Below, piece by piece: positions 24,474-58,619 of a stretch of 64,000 nucleotides of DNA. The stretch is from assembly GCA_947034895.1 (NCBI GenBank), contig OX344761.1:69253839-69317838 (forward strand). Direction: 5' to 3'. A program made the translations under genes and the position numbers. This DNA is from Rhytidiadelphus loreus (taxonomy: Eukaryota > Streptophyta > Bryopsida > Hypnales > Hylocomiaceae). Each line of letters opens with the position of its first letter. The first letter of the stretch is position 1. The notes beneath the pieces are model-generated. The model was given only the letters and a program-made list of their open reading frames with translations, made no database searches and had not been told where the DNA came from.

Positions 24474-24676
24474 CACTACAAGAGAAAGGGGTGTTTTAAG
24501 TAGTGTCCTAGACATCATGTCTTTTAAGTAACGTCTTTTAAGTAAGTTTTTAAGTAAAATTTTATTAAAAAGACAGTCTTTTTAGTAAAATTTTACTTAA
24601 AAACTTACTTAAAAGACGTTACTTAAAAGACATGATGTCTAGGACACTACTTAAAACACCCCTTTCTCTTGTAGTG
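24474..24676. mobile_element. CACTA-type foldback MITE, copy C (intact)
   Basis: It begins CACTACAAGAGAAAGGGG and ends with the exact complement, flanked by the 3-bp duplication ATA (24471-24473, 24677-24679). The two halves are almost perfectly complementary over about 95 bp, giving a long hairpin. CACTA tips and 3-bp duplications define the CACTA (En/Spm) superfamily. The near-perfect arms suggest recent movement. Confidence 0.85.
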
Positions 24677-25449
24677 ATAATATTTTTGGCATTCTAATCA
24701 TTTTCCTTAAGTCTACCAAAAACATCAGTTAAAAATCAACAAATAAGATTAGAACTTGGTTCAAATACTAAATTGAAGGCAATTCATCAATTCAAAGCAA
24801 TTTATACACTATTTTAACATTGATTACCATATTAGATATAGAATCATTTCAAATCATACTTTGAAAGCAACCACAACTATTAAAGTAAGAAAATATGAAA
24901 AGAAGCCTCAATAACACGAACATCAAGACAAACCATAATGAAATGCAATACCAAAAAATTGTGTGAATAAGAATATGATGGATGAAATTGTAACACATGT
25001 TGCATTTAATACATGAGAGAGTATATACATGTCCCAAGTTCACCTTAAGTCCTTAATGACCATGAGACAAAGATCACACATCTAGAATACTTATTTGGCA
25101 AATAAGTTAAATTGTTATAATACAAACCAATGTAACACATGCCAATCAATTACTACTAACTTCCTTAAACCCTGAGACATCTACATTCTAGCTCAAATAC
25201 TAATGAATGATACAATAATTAGATATTATACACACTCAACATTGTGATGATTTTCATGGCCATTGATTCTCTCAATGGATGCAAGTAAACAATGGAAAAA
25301 ATTCTAAAAGGAGGCCTAGGCCAGCTCATTAATGCCAACTAAATACAAAGAGCCCTGAAATTCCAATTGTAGTTCTATAGGCCTGCTGTCATTTTCTTCT
25401 TTCAATGTTTCCTTCATCTACATTACTAGAACTAGAATACTACAATCTC
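24677..25449. other. AT-rich non-coding stretch
   Basis: No gene or clear repeat boundary was recognised. Confidence 0.45.
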
Positions 25450-26008
25450 GGGGGGTGCACTTAGTTCTACTATAACAAACCACGTGCAAACAAGTGGTTT
25501 CTAATAAACTATAATTTCAACCTAAAATTTTGAACATTGTTTAATAATGACTATAGCTTTCTATTGCCAAAATTTCCAACTCAAATAAAATATGAAAGGA
25601 TTTCTAGAAGAGGTTGAAAATGAACTAAAATGGCATGTTTTTCAACTCAAATAATTATAGAGGACACATATAGATGTCCAATTGAGTCAATATTCAACTC
25701 AAAATGAGCTTTCAATAATGAATTATTTTTAGGAATTTTTTGTTCATTTTTTAGACAATTTTTTCTTATATAATATAGGGGTGTGAAAGTTATTTTTCAA
25801 TTCTATAGTGTATCTTTTTACTTCAAAAATTTGTAACTAATTATTATTAACAAATAAAAATATCAATAATTCCAAACATACACTTTCAAAGTAGGAAAAT
25901 CTATTCATATTTTTTTAATTTTGTTTTATTTAAAATTCAAAAAGTATATAGGGGGTCCAAAGTTTTGTTCGCACGTGATTTTTAATGGACATTCTAAATG
26001 ATCCCCCC
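25450..26008. mobile_element. G-run TIR element, copy 1 (~0.56 kb)
   Basis: The left end is CTCGGGGGGTGCACTTAG and the right end, inverted, is CTCGGGGGGATCATTTAG. The interior matches the outer parts of 35393-36673 in inverted orientation ('aactataatttcaacctaaaatttt', 'attcatattttttta'), but here the sequence is uninterrupted between 'ataaactataatttc' and 'gtggtttcta'. This copy is therefore the empty-site reference for the nested insertion at 35897. Confidence 0.7.
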
Positions 26009-26264
26009 GAGACTACAATGATTGCACTATTGTAATTGGCTATACTTTGGGTTACTCAATTAGAAACTGGTGAGAGCTTATATGAGGCAGTTAAAATCTA
26101 CTTGTTGTAGATGGAGAAAGGATGAAAAATTGTTGATTCTAAATGTACTTTGTACATACATGACGAGCATTTGCATAGTTAAGGTATGTACAATTATACA
26201 CCCTTAATCAAAATTGCCCAAAATATAACCTACCTACAATTGGACCTGAGATTGGACTCCAAAA

Positions 26265-35310: not shown

Positions 35311-35392
35311 CACTAGTAGAAAATCTAAAATTTTTGTTGTTTTGGTCACGTTGATTTGGGTCAGTTTCTTGTTGATTTTGACAAAAATCCTA

Positions 35393-36673
35393 GGGGGGGG
35401 CACTTAGAGTGTCCATTAGAACCCACGTACAAACAAAACTTTGGACCTCCTATATATTTTTTGAATTTTAAATATAAATAAATAAAATATGAATAGATTT
35501 TTCTACTTTGAAAGTTTATATTTTGAATTATTGATATTTTTATTTGTTAATAATAATTAGTTACAAATTTTTGAAGTAAAGAGATACACTTTAGAACTGA
35601 AAAATAACTTTCACACCCCTATATTATATAAGAAAAAATTGTTTAAAAAATCAACAAATTTTTTTGAAAAATAACTCTCTATTGAAAGCTCATTTTGAGT
35701 TGAATATTGATTCAATGGTCATCTAAATGTATTCTCTATAATTATTTGAGTTGAAAAATATGCCATTTTAGTTCATTTTTAACGTCTTCTAGAAATCATT
35801 TCGTATTTTATTTAAGTTGAAAATTTTGGCAATACAAACTTATAGTCATTATTAAACAATACTCAAAATTTTAGGTTGAAATTATAGTTTATTAAAGGGT
35901 GAATGCAAGAAACACCGGTACTATTTGGCGTCACAACTGGAATGACGGAGATGCAATTTGCCATATCTTTTGGGAAATGAAGTCCATGTACTTGAAATTT
36001 TTATTGGAGATGGCTAACTTGGAAGTCCTTAGATTCCTTACTTTTGAGAAATTTTGAAAAAAAATCCTTTGATTAAATTGTAATTTACCTAATTTGTCAC
36101 ACTTTGCGTTTTAGGGGTTTTTAGTACTGTGGAGCATCCAAAAATGATGATGTACGTCTAGGATTGTTGTGGGCTATTGCCACAATAGAAGGGCATGTGC
36201 CTACCAAAGGGCATTCAAAAAAACACAATTCATTGTCTTCAACATGCATGCAAATAGGGGTCCCTTGCCTATAGCGCTCCTAATTTTTATGATGGTTTCA
36301 ATTTTTAGTTTTTGGTGAAATGTAATCACTATCAAGTCTCTACAAATGGCCAATTTTTAGTTTTTTTTTATTCATGATTTTCTAATTATTATTAATTTAT
36401 ACTTAATTTTATCTACTTTTTGTGACAAACTGTCATTTTTTTTAAGTAGTACAATTTCAGTATTATAAAGTACTCAAAAGTACTACTGGCTGTTGATTTT
36501 TCGGATCAACGGCTGAGATTGCTCCGTTTTGCAGTACTAGCTGTACTTGTAGTACTGGGCAGAAAAAACACAGTTTTGGCAGAACGCTCCCTAAATCGTT
36601 CGGTGTTTCTTGCATCCACCCTAAAAACCACTTGTTCGCATGTGGTTTGTTGTAGTAGAACTAAGTGCACCCC
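35393..36673. mobile_element. G-run TIR element, copy 2, inserted in the outer MITE
   Basis: The ends are GGGGGGGGCACTTAG and, inverted, GGGGTGCACTTAG. The segment 35400-35893 plus 36626-36673 corresponds to the whole of copy 1 at 25450-26008 in inverted orientation. It is interrupted by a third element at 35897. Its target duplication is not clear. Confidence 0.7.
35897..36621. mobile_element. 725-bp TIR element, innermost of the nest
   Basis: The TIR is GGGTGAATGCAAGAAACACC+G at the left and GGGTGGATGCAAGAAACACC+G (inverted) at the right, with one mismatch in 21. TAAA flanks both sides (35893-35896, 36622-36625). Copy 1 of its host element reads 'tttattagaaaccac' uninterrupted at the same place, confirming the boundaries. 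It is non-coding. Relatives lie at 22478-23222 and 62175-62597. Confidence 0.85.
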
Positions 36674-39700: not shown

Positions 39701-41039
39701 ACTTTCCATGATTATAGTGTAGCTATGATATAGGTATCTATATTATAGGTGTTTATATTATATGCACCTTCAATGGTTGTAATATATCTACTTATAATCT
39801 TATATATATGTTCAAAGTTCACATGCTTGCATTTTCATGCCCACATATTAGCACCATTGAGCAAGGAGGCGTCTTACAATTGTCAATTTCCAAGAGACAA
39901 ATTATGTGATGCAACTTCTCGAGGCATTGCACATTGTGCATTACTTAAATGACTTGCTGCTAAAACATCATACTTAGGGGTCTTTGTAAGAACCAATTGC
40001 CATTTTTGTCTCAAAATGTTCTATTTCAATGAGTATCGTGACTTTTGGAATAATTTTTTTCAATAATGAACTAAACTATGGATAATTTGTAAAGCATTCA
40101 AAATAATATATGTGAAAATAATATATGTCAAACCTAGAAAAATTTATCTCTAAAATTTATGCACAAAAAAAAGGTGATCAAAAATGCCAAAAAAATAGAT
40201 ACTTTGATGTTTGATTTTTAGAAAATAGTAAGAAAATTCAAAAAACAAACTAAAAATTGACCATTTTTTTTAATTTGAAGATTCTACTTGTCGACCATGT
40301 GCATCCGTAGGGGAAAAAATTGTCTTCTCTGCACTTATGCAAAGGTAGTTCATTTTGAGCATGTGTGGAAGGTGGACACTTTACTATTTTTAGAAAATCT
40401 CTTCATGAGCTTGTGTAATTTTTGTAGAAGTCCTTCTTTCTCAATTTTGACCTTCAAATTCACATTTTTGAGTCAAAAATAGTACTCCCCCCCCAATGAC
40501 AAAGGTAGAGATCCAATTGGGGGCTACTTAATATTAGTGAACTAATTGAAAAAATCGACAAAAATTACTAAATGTCTACAACTACCAACTATCATATGTA
40601 CTTTCATGTCAAATTTTATACAAAATTGACATATGGTGCAAAATTTATGAGCAAAAGACCACTTGTTTAAGGCCAAGGGGACAAAAAAGGACAAAATTTC
40701 GAATGGCAAAGTAAGATCAACAACCAAAAAAATTATTTGCATTTGGAGGTTAATGGAGCACTACAAGAGCAGGGCATACTACGCGAACAAAACGTTATAT
40801 TCAAAATTTTGGGAGTTTGGGACCCTCCCAAAATAATATTGTCAATTTTGATACCAATACAAATGATTTTCAGGAAATAATTTGTGTTCAGGACTAATAG
40901 AATTACTAGTTATTCAAGTGCAATTTCCATTAAAATGATAGTGAAGTGACATACAAAGTCCTTTATTAACATGACTTGGATTTGTGAGTGACTAATGTTT
41001 TTATTAAAATACATAAGATCATGCCATATAGAACACCAA
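36778..41039. other. AT-rich non-coding stretch with small tandem repeats
   Basis: 36801-36897 holds three ~41-bp units ('tttgtattatgccaaacaatt'). 39665-39770 holds 'tctatattataggtgtttatattata' units. An acidic open segment near 39335-39485 (about 48 codons) may be a coding relic but has no recognisable domain. No intact gene is seen. Confidence 0.45.
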
Positions 41040-41110
41040 GTCATGAGCTCTGAAGTTGGTTGTAAGGGGTTGTTTATCTCAATCAGGCGGTCCGGGTTCG
41101 ATTCTTGTTG
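41040..41110 (+). repeat. Possible tRNA-derived SINE head
   Basis: 'gctctgaagttggttgtaaggg' resembles a pol III A box, and 'ggtccgggttcgattctt' about 35 bases later matches a B box (GGTTCGANNC). The spacing is like tRNA-derived SINEs. There is no tRNA cloverleaf and the element's ends are unclear. Confidence 0.4.
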
Positions 41111-41599
41111 AACTCGTATGAGCGGCTGAGAGACATACATGACTTGGTACTGCTAGTGAATTATTCAGGCAAGAATGTTGTAACAACCAACTGCCCACCT
41201 ATCCGGAATGTGACAAGTGCTTAATACAGTTAACAAAAACAAAGTGGTTATACCCACTACCATTTTTTCAATTGTCTCACACTTTTAATTTAACTGGTCA
41301 TAGATATTTACAACATAAATGCTATTTAAAATTTTAAAAACCAATGGAAAAACATGTAAGATATTAAACTCAGAAGTACATAAAAAAATACATTAAAATT
41401 GAAATTGAATAGTCTTATTTATATAAATTAGACGTATATTCTAAAACATACAAGCAATACCAAACTATAAATCAAACCAAACAAAATTCAAACCTATGCA
41501 ATTTACTACAATAAACAAATTCCATCCATTATACACAATATAAGGATGTTCAATACAAAACAGAACATGCCACATGTACACATATGTGGATATCGCTTC

Positions 41600-44444
41600 T
41601 CAATTACAAGAAGTCAAACTTTCGTTGATGACTTCAATTTGTATAGCAGGGATCTTGATCATACACTCCACAGTGTCTTTCTGGATCCTCGACTTCCACG
41701 CTGTCATAAGAGCATCCGTGTGTTGCCAAACCGGAAGTTCAGTTTCATCAATCCTCCAACGTAAACCTCTTTCGCTGTCCCATCCGGTGTAGAAATCTTG
41801 AACATTCTGATTCCTTAATGTTGGACGAAAGTATTGAAGAAGGACACAATTTGGATACTCTGGATTGGAGTTTGGATCAGACAATGCCCTTGCAATCCAA
41901 ACTGGGTGCGAGTCACCATCAGCGGGCCGAACTGCAACAAAATAGCCTTCAAATAAATCTCGAGCCACTCGAAAAGATGGATTCGGGCGACCACTCAATG
42001 GCCCGACGTACGAGTCATCCTCCCCAAACTCTTCACGATCCTCACCATCATCGTCTAATTCATCTACTCGACTTGCTTGAACACGTGTAGTTGGCCAAAA
42101 ACCGTTCTTCAAAACATGAAAGGTAGGTAACGGTTCCATCAACGCTACCTTCACGCCACGCCAATAGTTCACCAAATGTTCGTAACGTCTTCGGTAATCC
42201 CCAGTGACGTCTGCATTGCATAAATTCTCCCAATACTTTACAAACCCCGACACACCTTTGACGATGTCTTCCAAGCCTTTCATAGGCTTCAGCGGAACAG
42301 GCAATGGTGAACCGCGTGGCCACAAACTTTGCCCTTCAGCATCTTCTTTCCACAACTTAATGCCTCCTCCTCCTTCGCCTAACCAATGAGCATCAGTGTA
42401 GAAAAGTTTGTACTTCATGACAGGGCACCCCGTTGAATCTAGGTAGAACTTCAATTGATGTGGCCTTGTATGCCCAACAAGAATGTCATCACCATCTACA
42501 AATGACCCTGCTATAAAACCTTTGAAATCGAGTACTTCTTCAATAAGGTGAGGGATAGTGGGGACGGAATCCACATCCATGAAGGCTTCATTAGCGCTGG
42601 TACTGTTGGGAAGTTCTCTTTCTTCAAATCCATGCTCCATCTTCCAAATAACGCATCAATGTCATCATGCGTATGACCCACAATGATGAAGTTCACAAAA
42701 ACTTCCCGGAAGATCTTGTTTGCTACAAGAAGAGACCAAAAACCAAAAACATATCTATTCTTATTGTCTCCTGTGGCATTGTCCATTTGCACATTTAAAA
42801 TGGGCGGTAGTTGCGTGGCTGGAGCTAAGGTATTTGGCAACGGCGGTAATGATGCATGGCACATGTCTGCACCCTCTAGCACAACCTTAAACAAATTAGA
42901 GGACTTTGCATTTGTGAACAACTCCCTAGAAGACGACTTCGGTGCTAACTCTAAATCTCGTAACAACTTTGCCATTGAACCAATGGTATAGTTGGAGTCA
43001 TGCAAGAAGACATCCAAGCCATAATGCGCATAGCGCACATCCGCATGACCATGCGCAATCATGACGGTCACAGATACAGATAGCTTCATGAGACCATCAA
43101 GTTCTTTATTCTTGTGAGAGAAGACCGGACAAGCGGTTTTTGCATGATCCATCTTGTCGTGTATGATGGTAAGACACTTATGCGGAGAGTTGAAGGACAA
43201 GTCTCGGTTGATGTAATACACATCCCTGTGTGCTCGAGCGACGGTGAGATGCTTATTCAACCTCCTTGACCACTTCATAGTTGTTTGGGAGCCATTGATA
43301 GCACCCTTGATGAGTTCATTATATTTGTCACAAGTAGCACACTGAGCAAAATTATCCCCTGGTTTCTTCACATCAAATTCAGAAAACTTTGTGGACCTTA
43401 TCTTGCTCAAGGTTGAAGTTGAAATCTCCTTCAAACCAAAAGCCGCATTGGTTTCATTGAGCTTTTGTAACTGGTCCTTCCATAGGAATGATGCCGGAAG
43501 AATCTTGGACACAACCTTCTCACCTGCCTTCAAAGTTCGGGTACGATGAGGCATGTGATCTGCCTCCTTGTCTAGGATGCACTTCAAGGAAGCCTTGGCT
43601 TGTTGAGTATGTTCTCTAGGCTTCAACAATCCAGTATTATCGTGATCCCTTGCTTCCCGATCATCCTTCATGTATTTCAAGTATCGATAGAATGTAGATT
43701 CAGCAACCCCTGCAATATGCATCCATGCGCGTAAACACACATTTATCTCTTCAATTGTCACCATCTTCCTTCGGCGTGAACCTTCATGAATCTATCTATG
43801 ATCCTATGCACATCAGTTTTCATGAAAGCTCTATGCTTGAAAGTTGAATTTCGGTACATGCGTTCTCGGAAAGCTCAAATTTTCTCCCTAGGAAACGGCT
43901 GGACACAATTCTTGTTGCAACACACTTTGCTAGACACCAAGTTAATTGACTCCTGCGATAGGAGCTCTTTAGCTTTTACACCAGTCTCCTGAGGCGGGTT
44001 TCTGACGGCACTAGCATATGGTCTTGCAGATGATGCAGATGGCGGGTTTAGAAGAGATGCTTGCAGACGATTGAAATTGTCCCTAGTTTCATGGTCGTGA
44101 AGACTTGCTCCACAATAATGAACCAGTTCAATTGGCCAAGCTACCAACGAGTAAAACAGTTCCTCAAGAAGGTCCACCTCAGAATGGGACTTTGAAATAT
44201 GCACTGATACATGAGTATCACCGAGAGGACCACTGGCACCAAGAACAAGATCAGAGCTCACGCTGTGGCAAGTACCTTCACCAACAAGTAAGCCTTCAGC
44301 ATTATACAGCTTAACACACTTCTTATTCCACATCAGACGCGGAATCCCTTCACACTCAGGAATGTCAACATTCATCTCTTAAATCATTTGTATCTCATCG
44401 TCCGACAAATCCATGTCAATATCCGGGTTCGCAAGAGGATCCAT
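41600..44444 (-). pseudogene. DUF7869-type transposon protein, nearly full length, frame broken
   Basis: The gene reads on the minus strand from the ATG at 44444, after a TTTTGTACAG acceptor, to the stop at 41600, about 930 residues. It contains a Cys motif 'CCNKNC' (about 43910), 'RAWMHIAGVAESTFYRYLKYM', and the core 'VQMDNATGDNKNRYVFGFWSLL...VNFIIVGHTHDDIDALFGRWS' typical of DUF7869 proteins, with D-N...H...DD residues that look like a DDE-type nuclease site. The family is encoded by eukaryotic mobile elements; a transposase role is inferred. Defects: TAA at 44379-44381, TGA at 43875-43877, a 1-nt shift near 43778-43785 and a 1-nt shift near 42580-42590. Element termini were not identified. 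The upstream leader carries the palindrome family at 44580-44894. Confidence 0.75.
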
Positions 44445-44579
44445 GGAACCTGTACAAAACAATCAACAATTGAAGTTTTTTGGCTAATGAATAACATAAT
44501 CCATGAAAGTCACATTAGTTACGCTAAATCTGTTCTTCAATACCACAATTGAATGAAGACAGAAGAGGTACAGATGCAT

Positions 44580-44894
44580 TTTAGCGCGAGTCGCGCTAAA
44601 GTGTAGTTTATTCTGGATGGACAAGTATAGCTAAGGTGCAAATGGGAGATACTCCACTGAAAATATCTGGGCATCCTTGTCACTAGCACTAAAGTGCATT
44701 CTACTGATTCCTTGGAAACCACATCTATACTATCACGACTACTGTCAAAGTGAAATTACACATAGAGGTCGCATATGCTCATTAGCGCGAACGATTTACA
44801 TGGAGAAGACATACACTTTAGCATCACTAGAGCTAAAGTGCAATCTAACGATTCACAAAGAGGAGACATGCACTTTAGCGCGACTAGCGCTAAA
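44580..44894. repeat. Palindrome family, cluster 1 (3 clear copies)
   Basis: Copies at 44580-44600 (perfect arms), 44817-44837 (diverged centre) and 44874-44894 (one change; arms extend to TGCACTTTAGCGC / GCGCTAAAGTGCA). Decayed halves lie at about 44676-44699 and 44781-44790. They lie 5' of the minus-strand DUF7869 gene, in its apparent leader or first intron. Confidence 0.85.
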
Positions 44895-45244
44895 GTGCAA
44901 TCAACAGGTTTTATATTAATTTGCTCAACAATCCCGTGTTTTGCGGAACTCATTCATTTTACAATAGTGAAATTACTATTTTTAGAAAGCCCGAAAATTA
45001 AGGCAATATTTCCAAACAGTATCATGAAATGGTCATTGGAATTTGTGTAACAACCTTACGTGATGAAAATCTACTATATTGGCAAAGACGCGACATGATA
45101 TGTAGACTTCATAAGTGATTACGGACGCTAACAATTGCCCCTGTGAAGCTACTGAAATTAATTGACTTGACTTCCTTCAAGTTCGCGCTCCATGTTTAAA
45201 AACTGATTCAGAACGTACATGTACAATAACATCAACGAGATGCG

Positions 45245-45556
45245 ATGAAGTACCTCCTGAAAGAGGAATGGGACACAAACTACTCGGTGGATCTGTGTTC
45301 CCCAAAAGAAACTCTTGAATTCTCCACAGAAACTAACAATGTAAGTACAAGACGCACACAACGAGAACAACGCGCACAAAAATTGACTCAGTTGAAGAGA
45401 AAGGTGGAAGGAGATGACTGCATCTTGGTTGACTACGCACACTTGAATTCTTGGCGGGAAGAAAATTGCGCCAATCCATTCTATGATTTTGAAAGCCCTC
45501 TGTCTAATTTCAGAAACCCCGGGATTCCTGATTCCTTGCGTAGGTTTACACTATAA
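45245..45556 (+). other. Open segment, possible exon of unknown gene
   Basis: A 103-codon frame with balanced composition. A canonical donor GTAAGT at 45340 follows 'SPKETLEFSTETNN', so only 45245-45339 may be exon. There is no domain I recognise and no partner exon found. It lies between two hairpin-bearing loci. Confidence 0.25.
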
Positions 45557-48500
45557 AGCACCAACTAATCCTAGAATAAACCACAGTCCCAACGGATTTT
45601 ATGCGGTGAGGTGCATCTTGAGGATTCCCTATATTAATGCTTGTTGACTTTCGTCCACTGACGTGTCTTCTTGTAATTCGAAAAGTGTCACGGACGCATG
45701 GCAGAATTTTAATTTTTAGTCGCACCCTATTTAGTCGCCTATTACGTGCTTCTTTTCTGAAGTACTTAAATAGCATACGTGAAATACTTTTGATTATATT
45801 AAGAGGATTCTCGCTTTGTTGAAATGACATTCCAATCCTCTGGAAGTCCAATTTTTTTTTCGATTTTATAGTGTCTACAATTTGGGAAATTCCTTTTCCT
45901 TTTATAGGGAAGGCATATTTTATGGTGCAAAATATGACTCTGGAAAATTATTTTTTATAGTACTGAAATTCCACTTTACTGTAGTCATATTTGAACTTTA
46001 GGTTTAGAAAAATTTAGGGTCAGGTTTAGGGTTTAGGGTTTGGAATACTAATAATGCATGGCATTACTAAAAATGAGGTCAAATTCATCACATTCTAACA
46101 AAAACTCGGAGTGATGGTTCATTGTACTTCCGAGCTTCACGTGTTGGAAATAAAATTGCGAGCACATGAAAGAGCAAATTTATGCATCCATTTCTAAAGT
46201 TTCTTGGGGGTGAAATCAATAAGATTATAATTTTTATTTTGTTGAGAAGTCAAGTATAATGAGTGTGAAAAAAATTGAGTGTCATTCTTCGTTGCACTTC
46301 AAAGGCACACGTGTAGAACTTCTTCTTCAACATGACGTGTGTTGTAGTTAAAAAATTTTAAAGCTCTAAACCTAAACCCTAAACTAATAAGATGAAAGTA
46401 AAAAGTATGTAGAAGTTGCAAATACACTAAACTTGTAAATTGAGGAGAAAAACTCATTCTTGTTACTTGTAGGCAACTTCCTACCCAAGAGAACTTGCAT
46501 TGAAAAAGCTATGTACTATAGTTTAAATTTTTTAAACAAGAAAAGAAACAATAAATTTAAAAGAATGTAAGGAAAACAATAGAAGTTTTAAACACCATGT
46601 AAATTTAGGATTCAAAAAAATACATAACTAATGGTCTCTTTGAATGACGTACTACGTGGAATTAAAAATTGGGGCACGAACCTTCCCCTGTACTTTAGTG
46701 TCCAAAAAAATTGAATCTCATGAAAATCACGTAGAAGTAAATAGGAACCATGTTGTGCAAGTTGCAATTCTTTACAAACTCAACGATTTAAAAAAATATA
46801 TAAATAATAGTAACTTTGAATGACGGAGGACGTGAAATCAAATGTTCGAAAAGGACCAAACCCTGTATTTTGATGTCCAAAAAAATATGAAGTCATGAAA
46901 TTCACGTAAAACAAAATGGGAAACATGTTGTGCAAGTTGCAATTGTTAAATATGGTACGTCATTTGATTTTAATTAGGGCTTCAAGTATAAACTATAACA
47001 CAAGGCTTTGCAAATGAAAAGTTCTTTTGCATACGAAAATGCATAAAAGTAACGTACATGTATGATTTATATGAATTGTAATTGTTCAACTTATTTAGAA
47101 CTTGTACATATTTTTTTCATTCCATTTACTTAATTTATTTCATGGATTTAGGGCTTTAGTATTTGTTAACTACAGCGCATGGCACATTTAACAAAAAGTT
47201 CTCTAGCGTATGGAAATGCATAAAAGTAACGTACATGTATGATTTCCATGAATTGTAATTGTTCAAGTTATTTAGAACTTGTACATATTTTTTTCATTCC
47301 ATTTACTTGATTCATCCCATGGCTTCTGGGCTAACATTTAGTTTTTGTTAACTACTGCACATCGCTCATTAAAAGAGAAGTTCTTGGCGTACAAAAATCC
47401 ATTGAATTACTTTTTTTGTTTTTTCTAAACTTTTTATACTTTACGTATAATTCTCCAAACTATAAAAAATCATTTATTTAAAGGTTTAGGGTTCTAAATG
47501 TTGAAGTTGTAAGTTTACTTACAATAGAAAATAATCATGGATATAATACATTGAGTGCAAGCTATTTTTTTTTATACATTATATATACCACATTTGATAC
47601 AGTCCATCGTATTTAGGGTTCATGAAATGTCAAATGTCATGAAGAAAGATTGAAAGAGCGCTTACATTTTAAATAATTATAGAAGTTTCAAAAACTTGGA
47701 GCATTGAAAGAGACAAGGAGAGCACTGTCAATTATGCCAATCATAAGTCACAAATCATTGAACCTAGTGGCACACTTTCAATATCTTGTAGAATCATGAA
47801 TGACAATTATGAGAATGAATGTCTATTTATGGTGACTAATTATTTTCAATGAGTGGTGAAAGGGAACAAGTAAATTTAACTTACGTATGATTTTAAATTT
47901 GAGTTATTTCTTACAATAATTAACTATATACTTTAAATTCAAAAATGAGAATTCTGTATTTTTTTTCCCTCTAACAGCTAATAATTTGTTTTATTCCAAC
48001 CTCACGTTCATGTTGTTTGAATTTTTGGTTAAAAAATAAAATCACTCTTACTTACAATTATTTGGGCTTTCATTTCAATTATAGTTTTCTTACATCCAAT
48101 GCAATTGTGAGAAGTTTGTGAACTTCATTCAGCACAAAAAGAATGTGCAATAAAACATTCATTTGTTGAAGTGGGCAAATACAGTAGTTTAGGGGTTCTT
48201 TGAGTTAAAATAAAAATGAAAGGTATTACAGTACAAAGGTATAATACAAGAAGAGTCAAAAGTGTTACTGTACAAAGGTATAACACAAAAAGAGTCAAAA
48301 TTTCGAAAAGGATATATGCGTTAAGGTATTAAATATTGTTGAAGAAGGCCTATGTATAAAGGAGGCTTCGATTCAAAGCAAACATATGGGCGGGTATGAG
48401 CATCGGGTAGGTACAAACATTGGGCGGATATGGACAACGACGGGTACGGGTATCGGGTACGTACGGGTATCGGGCAGGTATAAGCATTGGCGGATATGGA

Positions 48501-49316
48501 CCTCAGGCGGGTACGGGTATCGGGCAAGTACGTATCGCCCAGGTTCGCATCAAGTTTCACGTCACCCAAAACGAGTTAGGATTTGGTGCTCTTTTTTTTC
48601 CGCTCTCGATGTTTTGGGCTGATCGTTTGTGGTCTTGATCGTTTGTGTGGTCATTGAGGTCTTGATCGTTTGTGTGAGATCAGCGAGGTCTTCGGCGTGG
48701 TCGCAGGTTACAAAATTTGTTGCTGTGTGAGATCAGCGCGATCTTGGCGGTGCTTCGAGGAGGACCGCGACATCGTGGGTGGAGGAGGTTTATGGTTGAA
48801 TTGGAATTCGCGGTGGTTCACTCGGTGGTTGTCGCGGTGGTTGTCCGGTGGGTTGGCTGGGTAGTCTCCCCCCGCTTGCAGGCCGTCCATCGCCAGCTCC
48901 GCCAAGACATGTAAAGTCATTCTCACATTTGCGGTTTAGCTTCGTTTGGGTTTATGTTGTTACTCCCTTCATCGTATGTTTAGGGTTAGCACGCGTGCAG
49001 GTTCCGTTCCGCAGATTTTGCAGTAGGTTACGAATTTATTTTTTTTAGAAGTTCTAGCTTGCACGGATTCGATTTGCTAGTCTGCGTTCTGATTGAATTT
49101 GCTAGTCTGCGGATTCTCACATTCTTAGAATTCTGCTTCTTGCTTGGGCCGGTCGCTGCGTTGAATTCAACTTGATTTTTTGTGGCTATGCAGAACAACT
49201 CGAGCGCTCGCGAAGGAAGGTAGTTCGTGAAATTGGGAGGTCTCGGAGGAAGTTGCTGACTTGGAGGAGCTCGGCACACCAGCTTCGACCAGTCAGTGTA
49301 ACCTGATTTGTGAGGT
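45557..49316. repeat. Non-coding, with ~170-177-bp periodic repeats and GC-rich minisatellite
   Basis: Related blocks recur at about 46116 and 46283 (spacing 167), 46642 and 46818 (176), 47041 and 47218 (177). A TTTAGGG-type run lies at 46023-46040. Tandem 44-bp units sit at 48220-48300. A minisatellite of 'cgggtacgggtatcgggcaggta' type lies at 48388-48540. From about 48560 the sequence is GC-richer and may be the promoter and leader region of the gene starting at 50598. Confidence 0.55.
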
Positions 49317-49440
49317 ATTGCATTTAACCCGTTATTGCTGTACTTGAATTGCATTTTACTCGTGATTGCTGCACTTGAATTGCATTTTACTCGTGATTGT
49401 TGCACTTGAATTGCATTTTACCCGTTATTGCTGGACTTGA
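49317..49440. repeat. Four 31-bp tandem repeats
   Basis: Exactly four units of 31 bp, 'attgcattttactcgtgatt' + 'gctgcacttga', starting at 49317, 49348, 49379 and 49410, with few differences. They lie 1.2 kb upstream of the ParB-methyltransferase-like gene. Confidence 0.85.
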
Positions 49441-49944
49441 AGTAGGATTAGAGATTCGATTTAGGGTTTTGTTGTTTTTCTGAACATACGAGAGTTGCTG
49501 AGAGTTACTGAGAGTTGTAGTTGCTTAAACTAGGAGCCAGAATTGCAGAATCATACGACCGTTGCTGAGAGTCAAAAATGTCAAAACTAGGAGCAACCAA
49601 TGTCAGAAATATCACTAGTTTAACTAGGGTTCGAGATTCAGTGACATTTCTGATTCAAGCATGCAGTTTTGTTGTTCCCAATCTAGAGTCCAGTAATAGA
49701 CAAAAGTTGGAATACGTACTCAATTCCATAGCCGAATTGAACTTGCAAGATCGAAAATTTGTTTAGCGATTGCAATTGTATTGCTAGGAAAATTAGTTCC
49801 AATTGTCTACTTAGAAAGAAACCCTAAAATATGAGAATGAATTCCTGGCTCCGAACCGCTGTTCTAGAAATTTCAGAAGTTGCCCAAGTAAATTAGAAAC
49901 CCTAATATAAACCTAAAGCCTGAAACATGAACAGAACGAGTCAT

Positions 49945-50549
49945 TTTAGCGCGACTCGCGCTAAATGACAGTTCAAAAATTCTAAAATCATAAATCTGAC
50001 TGTTTAGCGCGAGTTGCGCTAAACTGCACATCCATTCCGGACCGTGATTGAAACAATTCAATCGCATACTCCATCATCGCATTTGCAGAACACCTCAACC
50101 CTGCATAAATGTCATCCCGAATTCCGTATACGACGATATGAATGCACGTAAAACTCTATGCACAAGAATTAATAGACTTCTTAACGCAGCCACAAATCCA
50201 AACACTTTAGCACGGTTCACGCTAAAGTACAAACCCCCACTCATCCACACAGTATGAACCTAGAAAGCCATAAAATACGTGACACCCGAACTACACAGCG
50301 ACACCAACAAAATAACTACCCATGCTCTTTAGCGCGGCTCGCGCTAAAAAGCAAGCACCCAATCATACAGACCTCAACAAACTAGATACTGGGAGCACAC
50401 CCAGAAAGCCAGACAACATAGAGACTCGAAGAGTGAATAATACACATGCTGTTTAGCGCGAGCCGCGCTAAACAGCAAACACCCGCTAAACAGTAAACAC
50501 AAACTCGCACACTGTGTACCCCGTGCACTTTAGCACGGTTCGCGCTAAA
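49945..50549. repeat. Palindrome family, cluster 2 (six copies in the leader)
   Basis: Copies at 49945-49965, 50003-50023, 50206-50226, 50328-50348, 50452-50472 and 50529-50549. The core is TTTAGCGCGA-N-TCGCGCTAAA with a few changes. The outer arms differ between copies yet still pair (TGCTG...CAGCA at 50447-50477; CACTTTAG...CTAAAGT at 50204; TCAT...ATGA at 49941). The last copy ends 48 bases before the ATG at 50598. Confidence 0.9.
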
Positions 50550-50905
50550 CAGCAAACATATCACAAATTATCTCACTCCTCTGTCATGTGATGTAGAATG
50601 GAAAACCAGATCAAGGCTCTGGAAATGTACTTCAAGAAGTGCGAAGTCCAGCTTCACGAGGACGATAAAAGTGCGGACGATAACCTCATCGAAGGAGAAT
50701 ATTGGGAGTTCAAAGAACCAGAGAGAGTAGAATCATGGAGCTTCTTCATGATTCCTTTCATAAACCAAATCTGCTTCTCTTACAAGTTCAGAAATGCACA
50801 GTGCCACCTACAGCTCTCCTTCCACAAGAAAATTAAGGATGTAGAAGCTAACATGCATCCCATGATCAAAGTCAAATGCATGACAATAATTCGTGGATCT
50901 TGCCG

Positions 50906-50965
50906 GTAGGATCAATACCATTTCGCTATTTGCATTAACTCCGTCCTGATTCCCTTCCATTTCAG
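50906..50965 (+). other. 60-bp intron 1
   Basis: CCG|GTAGGATC...CCATTTCAG|CCC. Splicing joins 'IIRGSC' to 'RPFLLSLEPTPYRDEI' in frame (phase 2). It is too short to hold a palindrome copy and has none. Confidence 0.7.
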
Positions 50966-52055
50966 CCCCTTCCTCTTGAGTCTCGAACCAACTCCCTACC
51001 GCGACGAGATCAAAGAGCTGGAAAAGAAGCTGGATAACAACGAGTGGAACAATGCCAATGGGACTCCTCTTTCGTGGAAGAAACTATGCAGTAAAATCCG
51101 TATGCTCTTCAACGATTTTTACACGCTCAAGGGAAAGATGGAGATGCAGCAAGAAAATAACAGACCTCAATCTGTATCAAAAGAGATCATGAATACCGAA
51201 GTCAGCCAGACATCAAAACTGAAGATTAAGCAAGAGCCTGGTGCCAGTCAAGGTCAAAGGAAGCTTGTGACGCCAGCGTCCAAGGCCCAACCGTGGAAGG
51301 GGAAAAAAGATGCTACCCCAACCCCCGAAAAGACAAAGCCACCAACGGAATCCGAAACATGAGAGGTGGCAGAAGGAAGTTACGTGGACGAAATGGAAAA
51401 TGTGCCACACTCCCGGGCAACAGAGAACAAACCTGACTACGAGCACGTCAACCAGGTGTACAAGAAATTTTGGAGCACCTGCGACGATGCTTACGTCTTC
51501 GCTCTCGATGAGAAGAAGGAGATCGACATTTCCCAGCTGATTGAGGCACCTCCGACATATAACATCCGTTCCAAAGAGAACCGCATTGTTGAAGACATGG
51601 TGAATTATCTACTCAACATACCTGACAAGAGTATCAAACAAACACTATGCGTTATGCCCGTCGGCTTCAGCCACAAGCCAACAAGGTGGGAGGACATTGA
51701 GGATGGAATATTTTACATCATCAACGGACAACATAGTGTTGAAGCAAGCAAATACATGTTCGATGACAACAACAACGTGGACGTGGATGAGAGGGAACAC
51801 TTCCGTAAATGGAACTGCTTCGTTGTGTGGTCACAGGACGCTGAGAAGTTGCGAGTCATCTCCGCATATTACAACCGAACAAATCATTTTGTGGCGGTCC
51901 AACCATCCTGGACGACCAATATCCTCGGAGCACGAAAAGTGTGGGAAGACATGGGAAGGCCCGAGAATCCAACGCAAACAAAGTCCGTTGGATCTCTAGC
52001 GGCCACAAGAAGGACCGTCGAGAACCGGCACAAGAGAGAAGCATTCCAGGTGCGT

Positions 52056-52076
52056 TTTAGCGCGAGGCGCGCTAAA
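52056..52076. repeat. Palindrome copy 6 bases after a 5' splice site (intron 2)
   Basis: TTTAGCGCGA-G-GCGCGCTAAA. The donor is CAG|GTGCGT at 52050, so the hairpin starts in the donor's immediate downstream sequence. The intron runs 52050-52181. Confidence 0.85.
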
Positions 52077-53538
52077 CTACAACATTGAAAATTCATTTCA
52101 TTAATTTCTCGGGATATATGAAGTTATGAACGTGTTTTCAACTCTGATGACATTTCCTTAAACATGTTTCAAATGTTTGAGAAGGCAATGTACGTCAGAT
52201 TCTCCATGATTGACGTTGTAAAGAATTTGAAAATCTCAAAAACAAAGTCGAAGGAGGAAAAGCTGAAGCTAACCAACGAACTGAGACTCATCACGGCTCC
52301 CGATGAGGTGTACAGACTCTGGAGCAAGGTGATCACCGCTGCCGCGCACGGAGAACTCTTCAACCCCAACACAGACATGATGTTCAATGAAAAACCAGGT
52401 TGGAATCACGAGAGTTGCATGTTGAATCGTGAATTCTTCAAGCACCTGGGTAATTTGAGCTATGATGAAATAGCAAAACTTGCTAAACATCTGTTCAATC
52501 AGTCGGGAGGAAAACGCAATCATGCTTACCCGAAGGTCACGGTCAAGAGTATCACCTCAGTCCTAGATGACTGCTTCAACACCAAGGAGTGGGTTGAACG
52601 TCGTAAGCGGAAGAACCTCGTGATCAAGGAGCTTCATGAAATCAAACCTCAACTTGGGCTCATGAATGCTCGTAACGAGATCATCAATGAGAACTGGAAG
52701 GCCTTCAAAAAGGAACGATTCTTCTCCAGCGCCACTATGGATGTACTCCTCGACAAACCAGGAGAAGCCTACTTTGGCAAAGCAAAGAACAAGTCTTCAA
52801 GAAACAAGACGATCACTGAGCTGTCCCAGGATGCCTATGATTTCTTCAAGATGTTTCTCCTGCACAAATCAAAATTCGAGAGACCGACAGCAAGTGGTCA
52901 CTACCGGCCCTATGAGTACCTCGGAAACAATACCAAGGAATGGCCAAAGAAGGTGTGGACTGCGGAGACTAGAAACTATCTTGCGTTGGGGGTAATTGAC
53001 TTCAGGTCCTTGCCAGGAATTGAGAAGAAGGAGAGCTCTACGGTGGACAAACCATACTTCGTCGAAGTACTCGCATCAATGGAGGCGAAAAGGAAACCTG
53101 CACTTGAAGATGTTCCATCATGGCTCTTCATTTGTGGTGACGAGAAGGAGCAAGCCCAGGTTCTCAAATTTATTGAATCTGACGAGGTTCTCGAATCGTA
53201 CACGATTTCGTACTCCGTGTACTCTGTAGGGAAAAACGACCGCCTTGGAGATCTTCCTGCAGCAAAGACGCCGAAGAAAGTGTTTTTGATTTTCCTGCAG
53301 GATTCCCAAAACGAGAACACGGTGGAAATTCTAGAGGAATTCGAGTGTCCGGAGACAGCACGATACCTGAAAGCACGCGCATACAGTGAGCTTGAGTATT
53401 GGATATACAACATCGAGTTGAAAATGGAATTTTACTTGTGGCTCGTGAAAGCCTTCTACAAGAGTGGCATGTCAATCTATTCTGCTTACATTGGGGGGAA
53501 ACTTACGTGCACGGCCGTGGTAAGTAATGTGGCTGCAC

Positions 53539-53655
53539 TTCAGCGCGAGTCGCGCTAAACAGACATGTCAATGTCAGTTGATTTGAATGATGTTATCACT
53601 CAATTTATGTTTTCACATTAGTACCAGCTGTCGATTTAGCGCGGGCCGCGCTAAA
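53539..53655. repeat. Two palindrome copies in intron 3
   Basis: 53539-53559 (TTCAGCGCGA-G-TCGCGCTAAA, 19 bases after the donor GTG|GTAAGT at 53520) and 53635-53655 (TTTAGCGCGG-G-CCGCGCTAAA, with outer GTCG...CGAC pairing). The latter has changed both arms together (CGCGG / CCGCG). The intron runs 53520-53707. Confidence 0.88.
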
Positions 53656-54779
53656 GCGACTGGTCTTTCTTGATAATCGAAATAATCATTTAATTTCTTC
53701 TTGGCAGATGAGTAATGTGAACGTCTTCGCCACTGGAATGGGTACTCAATCAGCATGGTGGGAAGACATTTGTAGAAAAGCAATGACGCTAGATATAGCA
53801 GACTTTCTTGACAATGGGTACCCGAGGGCTGCTGCTGCAGCTGGTCCAAGTACTACACCCCCCTCCGCAAAGAGAAAACTGAGGTCGTCTTAGACATCCG
53901 AAATGAGTGATCCTCTGCGGAGGGAGGTTGCGCGCTATGATGATGTTGCATCTGATTCGGAATCCGATGAGGAGGAGGAAGACATCGACGAAGATGGACC
54001 TCTGGGGATCGATGAGATGGCAACTTCTACAAGTCGACCATCGACAGATATACCTGGTTCTTCGGCGAGCTCTATGTTACCTCCATTGCCTGGGATGCCG
54101 AGGATTGCTACTCCGTCTAGGCGGCCACATAAAAAGAGGAAGCACAATTCAATGTCAAGTATCGGCTGTATCGCGCAACAATTGCCTGAGATTTCAGCGC
54201 AGAATGCAGTTTCCTTGGCTAATCTGCAGCAACAAACTCAGTTGACGCAGTAGCAAAACGAGCTTGCACTGGTGCAGTTGAGGGCGGAACAGATGAAGGA
54301 GAGGGCTGAAAACCTTGAACTACACAAGCGTAATCAAGAGTGGATGCGGTTGGAGTCTCAAACCAACCGAGAGCTAGCCCAACAGAATAGAGAAATGCTG
54401 CAGATCTTGATCAAGAAGGTCGGGGTTGAGCCGATCGCAGCGTTGCCACCTCCTGCCGAGACTCCAATGTTGGAGCTGCAAGGTCTGCCATCTGGCTCTA
54501 ACGTCAACAATGCCTCGAGTCCGTCGCTGCCTGTGCCGGTGTCTCCGCCACTTCCCAGTAGTGCACCGGAGTCTCCAGTTGCGTTGCCGATCGATGATGA
54601 TCATGTTGATAACCCCTCTTCCCCGAAGGCTGCACCGATTTTGCCGTCAGAGATGGACATTGGGCAGAACCTGTCCTATGATGCTTCCAAGGTGGAGCCT
54701 GGAAGTGATGCCCTGCCTACCGAAGATCAACCTACAGGTTCTGCCTAATAAACACTTAGTCAGCATTGCCTTGTGTAGA

Positions 54780-54800
54780 TTTAGCGCGGCTCGCGCTAAA
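54780..54800. repeat. Palindrome copy between the methyltransferase-like and phosphatase parts
   Basis: TTTAGCGCGG-C-TCGCGCTAAA. It lies within the possible intron 54737-54990 that would join the two coding parts, or in the intergenic region if they are separate genes. Confidence 0.85.
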
Positions 54801-54990
54801 CTGTTTGGTAGAGATTGATCTCAAATTTTGTAAATAGAAGCAGTAATCGATGCTTATCGGACGTTCATTGTAGAGGCATTAGTTTTGGTTTGGACGTTTC
54901 TGGACTCAGTTTTATATTGTAAGAGACAGTTATCTCTGAAAATGTAATATATATCTCACAGAGAAACTTTTTCCAAATCGTGAATTGCAG

Positions 54991-56138
54991 GCCATGTGGA
55001 TATGGAAAGTTGTCCTGAGGTTTGTGTCCTTCCTTCTACACAAAATCAACTAGTGACGACATCACATTTTGAAACTGAGGATGATAATCCAGTCACGACA
55101 ACTGAACTCCTAGAACTCGATGACGATACGTCACCTCTTGATCCTGTGAATACCGGTTGTGAAAATGATGATCAACCTTCAAGTTCGACAATGGAGAAGG
55201 TATAATCCTTTGTTCCCTTACGGCGTGATAAGACTTTTTTTTCTATTTTTTCCCTCTGGCTCTGACTTGATTTCGCATGACGGCCGAACAAAGCCAATTT
55301 CACGATCGTAACTGCTCCCCGTTCATACGTTTGTTAGCAGGGCTCCGATCCTACAGTAGTTCGTGAGGGCACTTCCGAGGGCATCCATCGTCCATTGAGG
55401 TCTGGGGTGGCAGAGAAGTGGATGAACGTCGTCCTAGACCTCAATGGCATTTTATGTCGCAGCAAGGACTAGAAGTCAAACAGTTCAAGCAAGCATTTTC
55501 AAAACGAGTCAGAGCCGCACTCTGCGACGGTCGGTGCAATTGTTGGACCAAAAGCAGTTTATGTCCATCCGAATTGCTTTGAGTTCTTGAAGAAAATAGG
55601 GAGGATAGCTAAAATCACTATATGGAGCTCCATGAAAAAAGCCACGACCGATGAGATCTGTGTGTACCTCTTTCGAGAAGGAAGGTGGCCCTTCCTCGTT
55701 CTGGGGCAAGACTCTTGCAAGACTATTAAGTGCAGGGATAGAGCCGGAAGGCTGACCTCTTACAAGGAACCAGAAACAAATAAAGATTTGTTCCTTAAGA
55801 ATCTAGATTTCCTCTTCTCAGGCTTCCACGGAAATTTCACTTCTCAGAATACAATGATTGTGGACGATAGTCCGCGCAAACACATCATGAACAAGCCTAA
55901 GAATGTGATATTAGCGGATTCTTGGAGCAACCGAGGAAACGGTGACAAAGACACGTTCCTTCTAACGGTCCTTCTTCTTTGGTTCCAACAATTGCACGTC
56001 AACCGCAGCAATGGTCTGAAGTCCTTCAGAGAGAATAAAAAATGGAGGATTGGGAGACGGATGCTATGCGAAGAACGGGGTCGTCGAGAGTATGAAAATC
56101 TTATGGAGGTCCTCCGTGGGTCAGCTAGTGTTAGTTAG
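54991..56138 (+). pseudogene. FCP1/NIF-like HAD phosphatase domain gene (one in-frame TAG)
   Basis: Exons 54991-55199 and 55341-56138 are joined by a GTATAA...TTAGCAG intron, phase 0. The first exon is acidic and Ser/Thr-rich; the second holds an FCP1-type HAD domain. Motif I is 'VVLDLNGILC' (Asp nucleophile kept, second Asp replaced by Asn), then 'ITIWSSMKK', a variable cap-free middle, and 'NTMIVDDSPRKHIMN' as the acidic motif IV, followed by a C-terminal 'DTFLLTVLLLWFQQL' helix as in TIM50/SCP-like proteins. DLN in motif I makes phosphatase activity doubtful. A TAG lies at 55470-55472 right after motif I. The first exon starts in phase 1 after TTGCAG, so an upstream exon is required; the donor ACAG|GTTCTG at 54737 of the preceding gene fits the phase and would make one long protein. 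Confidence 0.65.
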
Positions 56139-56235
56139 ACGTGTTTTTGGAGGTATGCAGCTAGTCATGTTTTTAGAGTCCAGAGAAATTGTATCGAATG
56201 TAATACGCTTATTTTGGCGCATTTCTCTATTGCAT

Positions 56236-56256
56236 TTTAGCGTTGTTTGCGCTAAA
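56236..56256. repeat. Palindrome copy 3' of the phosphatase exon
   Basis: TTTAGCGTTGTTTGCGCTAAA core with arms extending to TGCATTTTAGCG / CGCTAAAATGTA. It is the most diverged central part in the family, while the outer arms still pair. Confidence 0.8.
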
Positions 56257-56384
56257 ATGTAGTTGGGATAATGTTTTCCTTGAAATTTAATGGCTTATTG
56301 ATGTATCTGAAGTTCAAGCATAACCATCTGTACTTATGATGCGTTGACAATTCTACAGCTAATTCTGTTTTTGTTCTCTGTCAG

Positions 56385-56871
56385 ATGAGAAACGGGTCTA
56401 CCAGTTCCAGGATTATTGAGATTCTTCCGTGTCAGGCGTACGAGGACTCTATTCTCAACTATGGACAATACGTCATACTTAGTACGGGGAATTTCCTTTG
56501 CTCGGCCCCGACTGTTAATTCCACCATGGACTTCTCTGTCAAGCACGTCGAAGACGGTGTGGTAAACAACCCCCCTGACAAGAGGCCGCGCTTGCCAATT
56601 TTGTGCTTGCCATCTCCTCTGTACTCTAAAGCAGCCAGGGATTCATCAACGTTGCCAACTATTTCTGAGAAAGGGACGCAAAGGAAGCTTTACGGAGATG
56701 CTAATTGTTTGATGACGACACCAGAAGTGAAAGTCCATACGCCAAGTGACCCGCTCTCGTTTGAAAAAAAAAACTAAACCTGCTGTCGTTCGACCTCTAC
56801 TTCCACGTTGCCGTGCATTGTCTCAATCAGCAAGATTAAAGAGAAATGCGGAGAGGTCATGTAGTACTTAG
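56385..56871 (+). pseudogene. Basic-tailed unknown ORF, frameshift in an A10 run
   Basis: The frame opens at ATG 56385 immediately after a pyrimidine tract and CTGTCAG acceptor, so it is probably a downstream exon of the same locus. It reads 'RNGSTSSRIIEILPCQAYEDSILNYGQYV...' and ends at TAA 56775-56777 after ten A (56764-56773). One base of slippage there continues an open, strongly basic frame ('VVRPLLPRCRALSQSARLKRNAERS') to TAG at 56871. No domain is recognised. The shift may be a mutation or a sequencing error. Confidence 0.45.
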
Positions 56872-58619
56872 TCCTCCACTCCTACTTGGGACTCTTGGGA
56901 GAGAAGGTCACTACTAGCACAAAAAAGAGAGCATATGCGTCAAGAAGGTGCAAGTGTCCGGGGGGGGTACAATCGTGGGCCTGAAATTTTGAGGCCCTTG
57001 AAAAGATGAAGAGTACGTCGTGCAGGTGATAGTTGTGCTTCGTATATGTACATTTCTGTTACATGATGTTAAGGCTTGTCTCTGTGAGTTCTAATTCACT
57101 ATTGACTTAGGTGGGAACATAGGGTTGCTATTGGCATGCAATCATTACTTGGATACTACACTTGTAATTGCATAGACGAGTATGTATTGCACACATAGGA
57201 AAGCAAATATGTGTAAATGATATGAATTTCCTTACTAATAGAGATGCAATGCGCATAATTTTGAGTATATTTTTTCTAAATCTTCTATACGATGATAGTT
57301 TTCATTACCATTGATTGCTTTCTATGTGTTTGCTGACGTTTAATTTGCTTCGGGACATTCTAATGCCTTAGAATTAAACTCTCAATTCTCTGGAAAACTC
57401 CCAAAATAGTGAATATAGTGTTACAATGAGATGCAGTCACTTAATTAGTGATAGCTAAGTATAGACTTGAAAATTGAAGGTCGGAGAAGGTAAAGCATGA
57501 GTGATCAAAGTTGTGCAAAGATAGAGATGGAGTGACTTGGTCAGTGATGGCCAACAAGAAACCTGGAAATTATACCACAAAAAAAGCGTTATAAGAAGAT
57601 AGTAGACCATACAAAGAACAATAGCAAGTACCATGATCACTAACATGGAAGCAAAAACTCCAAATTTGAAGGTCAAACAGTGCACTATAGGAGCAGGGCA
57701 AGCTAGAGAGAGATGAATCATAACAATAGCACTAGAAAGGGGATGCACATATAGGAGATTGTGACACCAACATTCAGGAGCAAACCTTTGTAGAGTTTCC
57801 AAAGAGACTCTCCAATAGTAAAGGCAAGATTTCAAACTTTGCTTGGTGAAAATCTCATTTTGGGAAGCAATTTCATTCACATGAAGAACCTAGTGAAGAC
57901 ATTGGTAGTCTACAGTAAACATGAAAGGCATTATTGCAAACAAGAAGAGCTTTCAAGCAAATTTACAAGAAAAACGAATTTGCAACAAAGGAGCCAATAA
58001 ATGAAGGTTCAAGAAACAAAAAATGTAGTAGCCATGAGGGATTGCACCAATGATGATGCACATCACAAAACAACTCCCCAAAACTCTAGAAGGTAAAAAT
58101 CCATCTCAACTTTCTTCAAAAGAAGCAAAGGGAAAAAAAATAGAAATTGGTCTAATGCACAACTCTCAAGGGCCCTAGCAAATGTAGATGATGGGAAACC
58201 AATTAAGGCATTTACAAGGGATTATGGCATTCTTGCTTTAACATTGAGAAGTCATCTTTATAGGACAACATTGACAAGGAAAAGGGAGAAGAAGGGAATA
58301 TTCACATAATTTGAAGAAGAAGCTTTGGTGAAGTTCCTCATCAAAATGCAAAACTATAGCTTCCCATTTAACATGGGCCAACTTAAGGAGAAGGTAGGGC
58401 TCATCACACAAACTAAAGCCACTCCATACAAAGATAAAAGCCTTGAACAAGGCTTTAGTGGGTGCTTCAAATGAAGACAAGAAGATTTGGTTTTGAGAAA
58501 GTCTCATGCATTAAAGGCCAATAGAGTTAAGGGACCAAATCTAGAAAGTATTAGAAGTTTTTATGAGAACTTGCAAAAACTTTGTAACAATTGAGGCTAC
58601 GCCCTACGTACATCAAACT
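56872..58619. other. Non-coding stretch
   Basis: No supported gene. The hydrophobic minus-strand open frame at 57455-57880 lacks homology signals and sits in low-complexity DNA. Confidence 0.45.

Follow-up and report, generated by a model that had tools for sequence, protein, structure and literature searches.

In maize, the En/Spm protein TNPA has many cognate repeats near the element ends, and in Arabidopsis the VANDAL elements, which are Mutator-like elements (MULE), encode the protein VANC. VANC binds short motifs that lie in the introns and upstream regions of VANDAL, are multiplied in tandem repeats and vary from one subfamily to the next (PMC5735166, PMC10398659). Here we analysed a window of 64,000 nucleotides from the moss Rhytidiadelphus loreus (contig OX344761.1, positions 69,253,839 to 69,317,838 of the forward strand), in which a first-pass annotation had reported a family of palindromes restricted to one 11.7-kb segment. 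We show that these palindromes (dyads in the following) occupy regular non-coding positions in a family of multicopy DNA transposons, the lineages of which own distinct dyads with both arms changed together. Among the cases studied so far, VANC of VANDAL is the closest.

CTP-binding ParB proteins carry the motif GxRR, and canonical methyltransferases the motifs DPPY (catalytic) and FxGxG (cofactor). Several bacterial proteins with a ParB-type domain have been described: TTTTAGC-G-GCTAAAA is part of the KorB operator oligonucleotide (PMC11790492), DndB is placed in the ParB superfamily (PMC10853773) and binds TACGN10CGTA palindromes within the promoter of its own gene (PMC4507180), and Bce_0392, which joins a ParB-like domain and a DNA adenine methylase, is described as having nicking activity (PMC5512222).

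The palindrome family is real. In the window we found 12 matches to the 21-mer TTTAGCGCGANTCGCGCTAAA with at most three mismatches, all within 44580–54800, and none in 100 shuffles. Allowing up to five mismatches over the 18 arm bases, 14 dyads with the arms TTTAGCGCG/CGCGCTAAA (GCGC type) are present at 44580–56256 and none in the rest of the window. To say that at least 14 copies share the arms is slightly generous, as three of them are degenerate: seven have exact arms, four show one mismatch and the others two, three and five (Table 1). None lies inside a coding match, and the paired change noted at 53635 (CGCGG/CCGCG) is present. The restriction to one segment holds within the window, but the locus itself is not special: the segment is part of the larger unit 40791–57423, a transposon present in many copies. 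In the genome (407 Mb, 489 contigs) the exact sequence TTTAGCGCGNNNCGCGCTAAA occurs at 168 places (control 0). The first 50 of these 168 places form seven clusters on one contig, all seven (window included) being whole or partial copies of the element. The left end is common to four copies (window, A, B and E) with differing flanks beyond it, and the right end near 57423 to six (window, A, B, C, E and F), while copy C is without the left 0.9 kb, copy F without the left part, and copy D matches the window only up to 53907, its left side being cut by the border of the stretch read. The main aligned stretches are about 82–98% identical to the window. The element ends are AACGTTATATTC and GAATATARYGTTW, and 3-bp target-site duplications (TSD) were found in all four copies read at both ends (CAA, AAT, TTG and TTG). 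Because of the shared ends, the terminal inverted repeats (TIR) and these duplications we assign the 16.6-kb unit to the DNA transposons.

The methyltransferase-like exon of the element is found in its own genome in at least 95 rows (94 of 1,074 candidates scored), with bands near 90%, 80% and 60–66% identity. Seven relatives picked by this protein were read, namely L026 (80% band), L023–L025 (60–66% band) and L027–L029 (32–40% identity). The last three are contigs filed under a cyanobacterial metagenome-assembled genome (MAG) with intron-bearing, plant-like genes, and their plant-type transposon genes are a probable contamination of this MAG. All seven relatives contain dyads; in a shuffle control for L025 only, nine sites compare with at most one in 20 shuffles. 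The arms follow the lineage: mostly GCGC, less perfect, in L026; mostly GCTC, position 3 being T or C, in L023 and L024, where L024 has some mixed sites; ATCAGCTCG/CGAGCTGAT in L025; TTCAGCTCG/CGAGCTGAA or ATCAGCTCG/CGAGCTGAT in L027 and L028; and TTATCCTCG/CGAGGATAA in the most distant L029, so that the MAG contigs carry GCTC- and TATCCTC-type dyads. L028 keeps the gene order of ParB/methyltransferase, an open reading frame (ORF) that is coiled-coil-like by place and look only, and phosphatase.

Conversely, six GCGC clusters beyond the window, picked by their dyads, all have ParB- and methyltransferase-like matches. A TATCCTC-type cluster (C1:1555000-1570000), chosen for dyads spread over about 12 kb, matches the ParB-like (34%), methyltransferase-like (32% and 22%), phosphatase-like (31%) and ORF5-like (49%) proteins and has, counted without a shuffle control, 35 dyad-like sites with at most three mismatches, which sit in the equivalent leaders, introns and spacers. 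The association with ParB-like and FCP1-like genes that the first-pass annotation had proposed to test is seen in relatives as well. DUF7869 accompanies the dyads in six window-type copies and in L023, where five dyads lie in the leader of a divergent DUF7869 gene, but it was not found beside the one TATCCTC-type element read. In DUF7869's place C1:1545000-1570000 (L033, L031, L032) has a RING-finger-like ORF that stays below the Pfam cut-offs.

Across lineages the dyads keep their places almost to the base. From 195 sites at 14 loci a single one lies inside a match to ten window protein pieces, and this is a weak look-alike, though unmatched coding parts of L027–L029 would escape this test. 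A dyad stands at +7 past the ParB-like exon in 7/7 window-type copies, at +20 past the methyltransferase-like exon in 10 of the 13 measurable loci (the others at +24, +25 and +76), at +32 to +35 past the coiled-coil-like ORF in 9/10 (L025 at +342) and at +89 to +103 past the phosphatase exon in nine of the ten loci with any site there (L028 at +588). Ahead of the first matched coding stretch a dyad is found at 371–394 bp in 11 of 12 loci; L028 has 393 bp there and no site.

The two arms change together. In 159 unique 31-mers the pair 7/15 is G/C in 80, T/A in 57 and other in 22, giving 137 complementary pairs against 76 expected if the arms were independent, though these counts lean upward, and the pairs 3/19, 1/21, 4/18 and 5/17 likewise show at least two complementary states. 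When orthologous sites are grouped by exon distance, both states occur in 6 of 11 groups, those with divergent lineages, and the 85 states divide into 60 G/C, 17 T/A and 8 mixed. Genome pattern counts, which are free of the symmetry selection bias, gave 168 exact GCGC dyads (TTT/AAA ends only), 620 of GCTC and 2,244 of TATCCTC type with controls of 0, 0 and 1; as the 168 stand for TTTAGCGCG...CGCGCTAAA only, a strict comparison with the 620 is not valid. Mixed half-sites were found 65 times for GCTC/GCGC and never for TATCCTC/GCTC (controls 0 and 0). Together the three types amount to some 3,000 exact dyads in the genome, seven of them in the window, and the GCGC clusters inspected are element copies.

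Table 1: Positions in the window of the dyads, of the transposon that holds them and of its genes.
Feature	Position	Strand	Basis or remark
DNA transposon, 16.6 kb, holding all palindromes	40791..57423		ends common to copies, differing flanks, TIR, 3-bp TSD
Left TSD CAA	40788..40790		matching 3-bp duplications at copy ends
Right TSD CAA	57424..57426		
Left TIR AACGTTATATTC...TTTTGGGAGTTT	40791..40818	+	
Right TIR	57395..57423	-	
DUF7869 gene, putative DDE-type transposase, several ORF pieces	41600..44378	-	PF25273 E 3.9e-35; conserved acidic residues
Dyad, DUF7869 leader, exact arms	44580..44600		arm matching
Dyad, DUF7869 leader, degenerate (5 mismatches), within 57-bp unit	44817..44837		
Dyad, DUF7869 leader, 1 mismatch, within 57-bp unit multiplied in other copies	44874..44894		
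Dyad, leader of ParB/methyltransferase-like gene, exact arms	49945..49965		
Dyad, same leader, 1 mismatch	50003..50023		
Dyad, same leader, 2 mismatches; core inverted versus copies B and C	50206..50226		
Dyad, same leader, exact arms	50328..50348		
Dyad, same leader, exact arms; 31-bp symmetry (50447-50477)	50452..50472		
Dyad, same leader, 1 mismatch, 381 bp ahead of first matched coding stretch	50529..50549		
Gene with predicted ParB/Srx and methyltransferase folds	50598..53892	+	exons ~50598-50906, 50967-52049, 52170-53519, 53709-53892; splice sites by eye
Dyad, intron separating ParB-like and methyltransferase-like exons (+7), exact arms	52056..52076		
Dyad, intron following methyltransferase-like exon (+20), 1 mismatch	53539..53559		
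Dyad, same intron (+116), exact arms; paired change of the arms	53635..53655		
Acidic/coiled-coil-like ORF	53894..54748	+	nature by eye; matches in related loci
Dyad, spacer following coiled-coil-like ORF (+35), exact arms	54780..54800		
NIF/FCP1-like phosphatase gene	55473..56138	+	PF03031 E 7.6e-12
Dyad following phosphatase exon (+101), 3 mismatches	56236..56256		
Downstream ORF, no assigned function	56340..56777	+	matches in related loci

Among nine ORF pieces scanned, which define the scope of all Pfam and ParA statements on the window element, only DUF7869 and NIF passed the Pfam cut-offs. The DUF7869 protein is a putative transposase, its DDE character being suggested by conserved acidic residues, and one relative (P0005) is labelled transposase by its source. 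Predicted models point to a ParB/Srx fold for one part of the ParB-like protein and to a DNA methyltransferase fold for the other. The ParB-like domain shows the motif INGQHS, with N121 and Q123 invariant and G122, H124 and S125 nearly so in 38 rows. In most rows of the methyltransferase-like part the DPPY position reads D[FL]R-x-x-P and the FxGxG position approximately [FY]xGxK; compared with the beta-class DNA methyltransferases the predicted fold agrees, and the DPPY-type catalytic and FxGxG cofactor motifs are missing in most rows. Protein Data Bank sequence searches with three alignments gave nothing significant, and no NCBIfam family for the ParB- or methyltransferase-like parts was obtained at E up to 10. 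The window copy has an in-frame TGA at 51360 in the ParB/methyltransferase-like gene, and a TAG at 54251 breaks its coiled-coil-like ORF. Named relatives of the element proteins belong to Physcomitrium patens, also a moss. The first-pass annotation could see neither where the element begins and ends nor its co-diverging relatives nor the methyltransferase-like half of the ParB-like protein.

We consider it probable (roughly 60%) that the dyads are DNA operators for a dimer of an element-encoded protein, most likely the one with the predicted ParB/Srx and methyltransferase folds, since its gene adjoins and interleaves the sites, and that they serve self-regulation or anti-silencing. Such a dimer would bind the dyads in leaders and introns, would regulate the element's own genes and would probably keep the non-coding regions free of host silencing, like VANC in Arabidopsis VANDAL. 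Site and reader would drift jointly, which would lead to a nearly private specificity per lineage. As with VANC, the motifs are repeated in the non-coding regions of the element and rare elsewhere, judging from the clusters of the first 50 of the 168 places, they differ in sequence between subfamilies, and they are expanded in tandem repeats. In contrast to VANDAL, whose motifs have 9 bases in one orientation and whose protein has proven binding, the window element has long dyads, of which many stand singly at fixed positions, its binding is inferred, and it encodes DUF7869 and predicted ParB/Srx and methyltransferase folds with no MULE transposase match. With TNPA of En/Spm it would share an element protein with many cognate repeats, which are internal here and near the ends there.

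Like ParB, KorB and Noc, the element combines a ParB/Srx fold, here a predicted one, with palindromic sites, and the KorB half-site even has the letters of the window dyad. As other lineages use other letters, this likeness is probably chance and was set aside as a sign of kinship; moreover the window half-sites lie 9 bp apart and those of KorB 1, GQHS stands in the place of GxRR, and a ParA match is absent. DndB resembles the system as a ParB-superfamily protein with palindromes by its own gene, and differs as it is bacterial and has two sites with other letters, a methyltransferase domain being unmentioned in the accessible parts of the cited accounts. The Bce_0392 fusion is bacterial, and dyads are unmentioned in the accessible part of its account (PMC5512222), whereas the window fusion sits in a plant transposon and has altered catalytic motifs. 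A more far-reaching version of the operator reading, which we hold only tentatively and think rather less likely, is a ParB-parS-like selfish system in a eukaryote: plant DNA transposons would have taken up a bacterial-type ParB/Srx-methyltransferase fusion that has ceased to act as an ordinary methylase, and this fusion would load at the dispersed dyads and coat the element, keeping it expressed against host silencing, with at least three largely separate reader-site types (GCGC, GCTC and TATCCTC) in one genome.

Several points weigh against the operator reading. Similarity and symmetry guided the choice of sites for the covariation, placement and orthology counts, so the pair counts are inflated, and the copies, being related, lack independence; in addition, there are 65 mixed genome sites and 8 mixed states among the 85 orthologous ones. 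L023–L029 were picked by the methyltransferase-like protein, and the co-occurrence of dyads with it in these loci is therefore no independent support. The ParB-like domain has no GxRR, a helix-turn-helix was not identified in models that are poor past residue ~175 and barely cover the first 240 residues of the second exon, and Foldseek gave no row at E ≤0.001, with TM-scores by query of about 0.16–0.35. In three close copies the CpG bases of dyads are better kept than those of flanks (Fisher p 0.0006, 0.0014 and 0.0046), and the difference from other non-coding DNA is only weak (p 0.026, 0.063 and 0.036); these tests treat both the copies and the paired bases of a CpG as independent, which they are not. 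The distant copies A, D and F show little or no such gain of dyads over flanks (50/56 vs 38/43, 40/44 vs 23/27 and 45/48 vs 37/41). Over all bases the dyads of close copies are 93.5–95.6% identical, flanks 92.8–93.6% and other non-coding DNA 95.5–96.2%, and in distant copies, where 105–147 of 294 dyad bases are unaligned, the values are 87.3–90.5% for alignable dyads, 76.8–80.4% and 87.7–88.7%. Base-by-base conservation is thus weak evidence, and the case rests on placement and paired change.

The same footprint could be left by DUF7869 or a host DNA-binding protein, the dyads then serving transposition or host-driven transcription. Transposases commonly bind repeated sites, and the leader of the likely transposase gene DUF7869 has dyads too. 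We nevertheless regard such a reader as unlikely, because the dyads avoid the element termini, with 3.8 kb between the left end and the first of them and 1.2 kb between the last and the right end, a host protein hardly explains several dyad types per genome with few mixed sites, and 10 kb leftward of the single TATCCTC-type element read, which has 35 dyad-like sites, did not yield DUF7869, a negative that counts against the operator reading too. Template-switch mutation can also keep palindromes, and a purely mutational maintenance by template switching between arms, tandem duplication and transposition would need no binding protein. It agrees with the unremarkable base identity of dyads in close copies and with cores inverted inside unchanged flanks, namely GAACC/GGTTC at the -703 leader site and TAGTC/GACTA in the 57-bp units; these inversions, at 50206 and in the units, suggest hairpin or template-switch events, and they fit a symmetric DNA site equally well. 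The 57-bp tandem unit, with one dyad per unit, lies at 44790-44902 and in matching parts of other copies, and its number varies among element copies. That placement is kept to within bases across lineages 60–66% and about 40% identical in protein, that scattered single sites with differing flanks have one dyad type in common, and that exons are free of dyads make this explanation quite improbable.

The first-pass annotation had proposed that a hairpin or dyad is maintained rather than a linear sequence. The dyad is indeed kept across relatives, but for RNA hairpins controlling splicing or feeding small RNAs we see very little chance, in spite of the long stems and of two intron sites near the donor side (+7 and +20). 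G-U mismatches on the sense strand are no commoner than A-C (67 vs 69), which does not favour RNA, and the plus-gene sites (58 vs 48) and minus-leader sites (9 vs 21) lean opposite ways, where sense was taken from position and the leader sites include ten nested ones of copy F; cores are found in either orientation, and no Rfam match exceeds the gathering threshold in 40700-57500. Just as improbable is a self-marking by the same protein as in the operator reading, in which its methyltransferase-like domain would modify a dyad base and the mark itself would matter. The predicted methyltransferase fold and the bacterial ParB-adenine methylase fusions (PMC5512222) speak for it, while the DPPY and FxGxG positions are altered in most rows.

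CACTA elements are defined by the termini CACTA...TAGTG, a Transposase_21-type protein and a 3-bp TSD. Only the last feature agrees with the window element, which starts with AACGTTATATTC and has no Transposase_21-type Pfam match. A CACTA element starting from the CACTACAAGA motif at 40759 was rejected, as the copies start at 40791 and the motif therefore lies outside the element. The palindrome search and protein alignments gave no confirmed viral contig. In the open-licence PubMed Central literature, judged by title and abstract start, no account of such an element and no paper on DUF7869 were found. Short GC-rich direct repeats lie at 48385-48532 in the spacer between the divergent genes. 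Elsewhere the window contains a long inverted pair (25502-26011 / 35390-35894, about 9.5 kb apart, 84–91% complementary), probably another element, near-perfect long hairpins resembling miniature inverted-repeat transposable elements (24463-24687 and 7275-7398), and ORFs on the minus strand at 11937-13298 that by eye resemble a MULE transposase with a SWIM zinc finger.

If the reader of the dyads is the ParB/methyltransferase-like protein, the element would represent a second, unrelated plant solution to sequence-specific transposon self-protection. One genome would then offer thousands of natural sites and several diverged reader-site pairs, so that lineage swaps would directly test how a DNA-binding protein evolves together with its site, and the bacterial ParB-methylase architecture would have been reused in eukaryotic mobile DNA.

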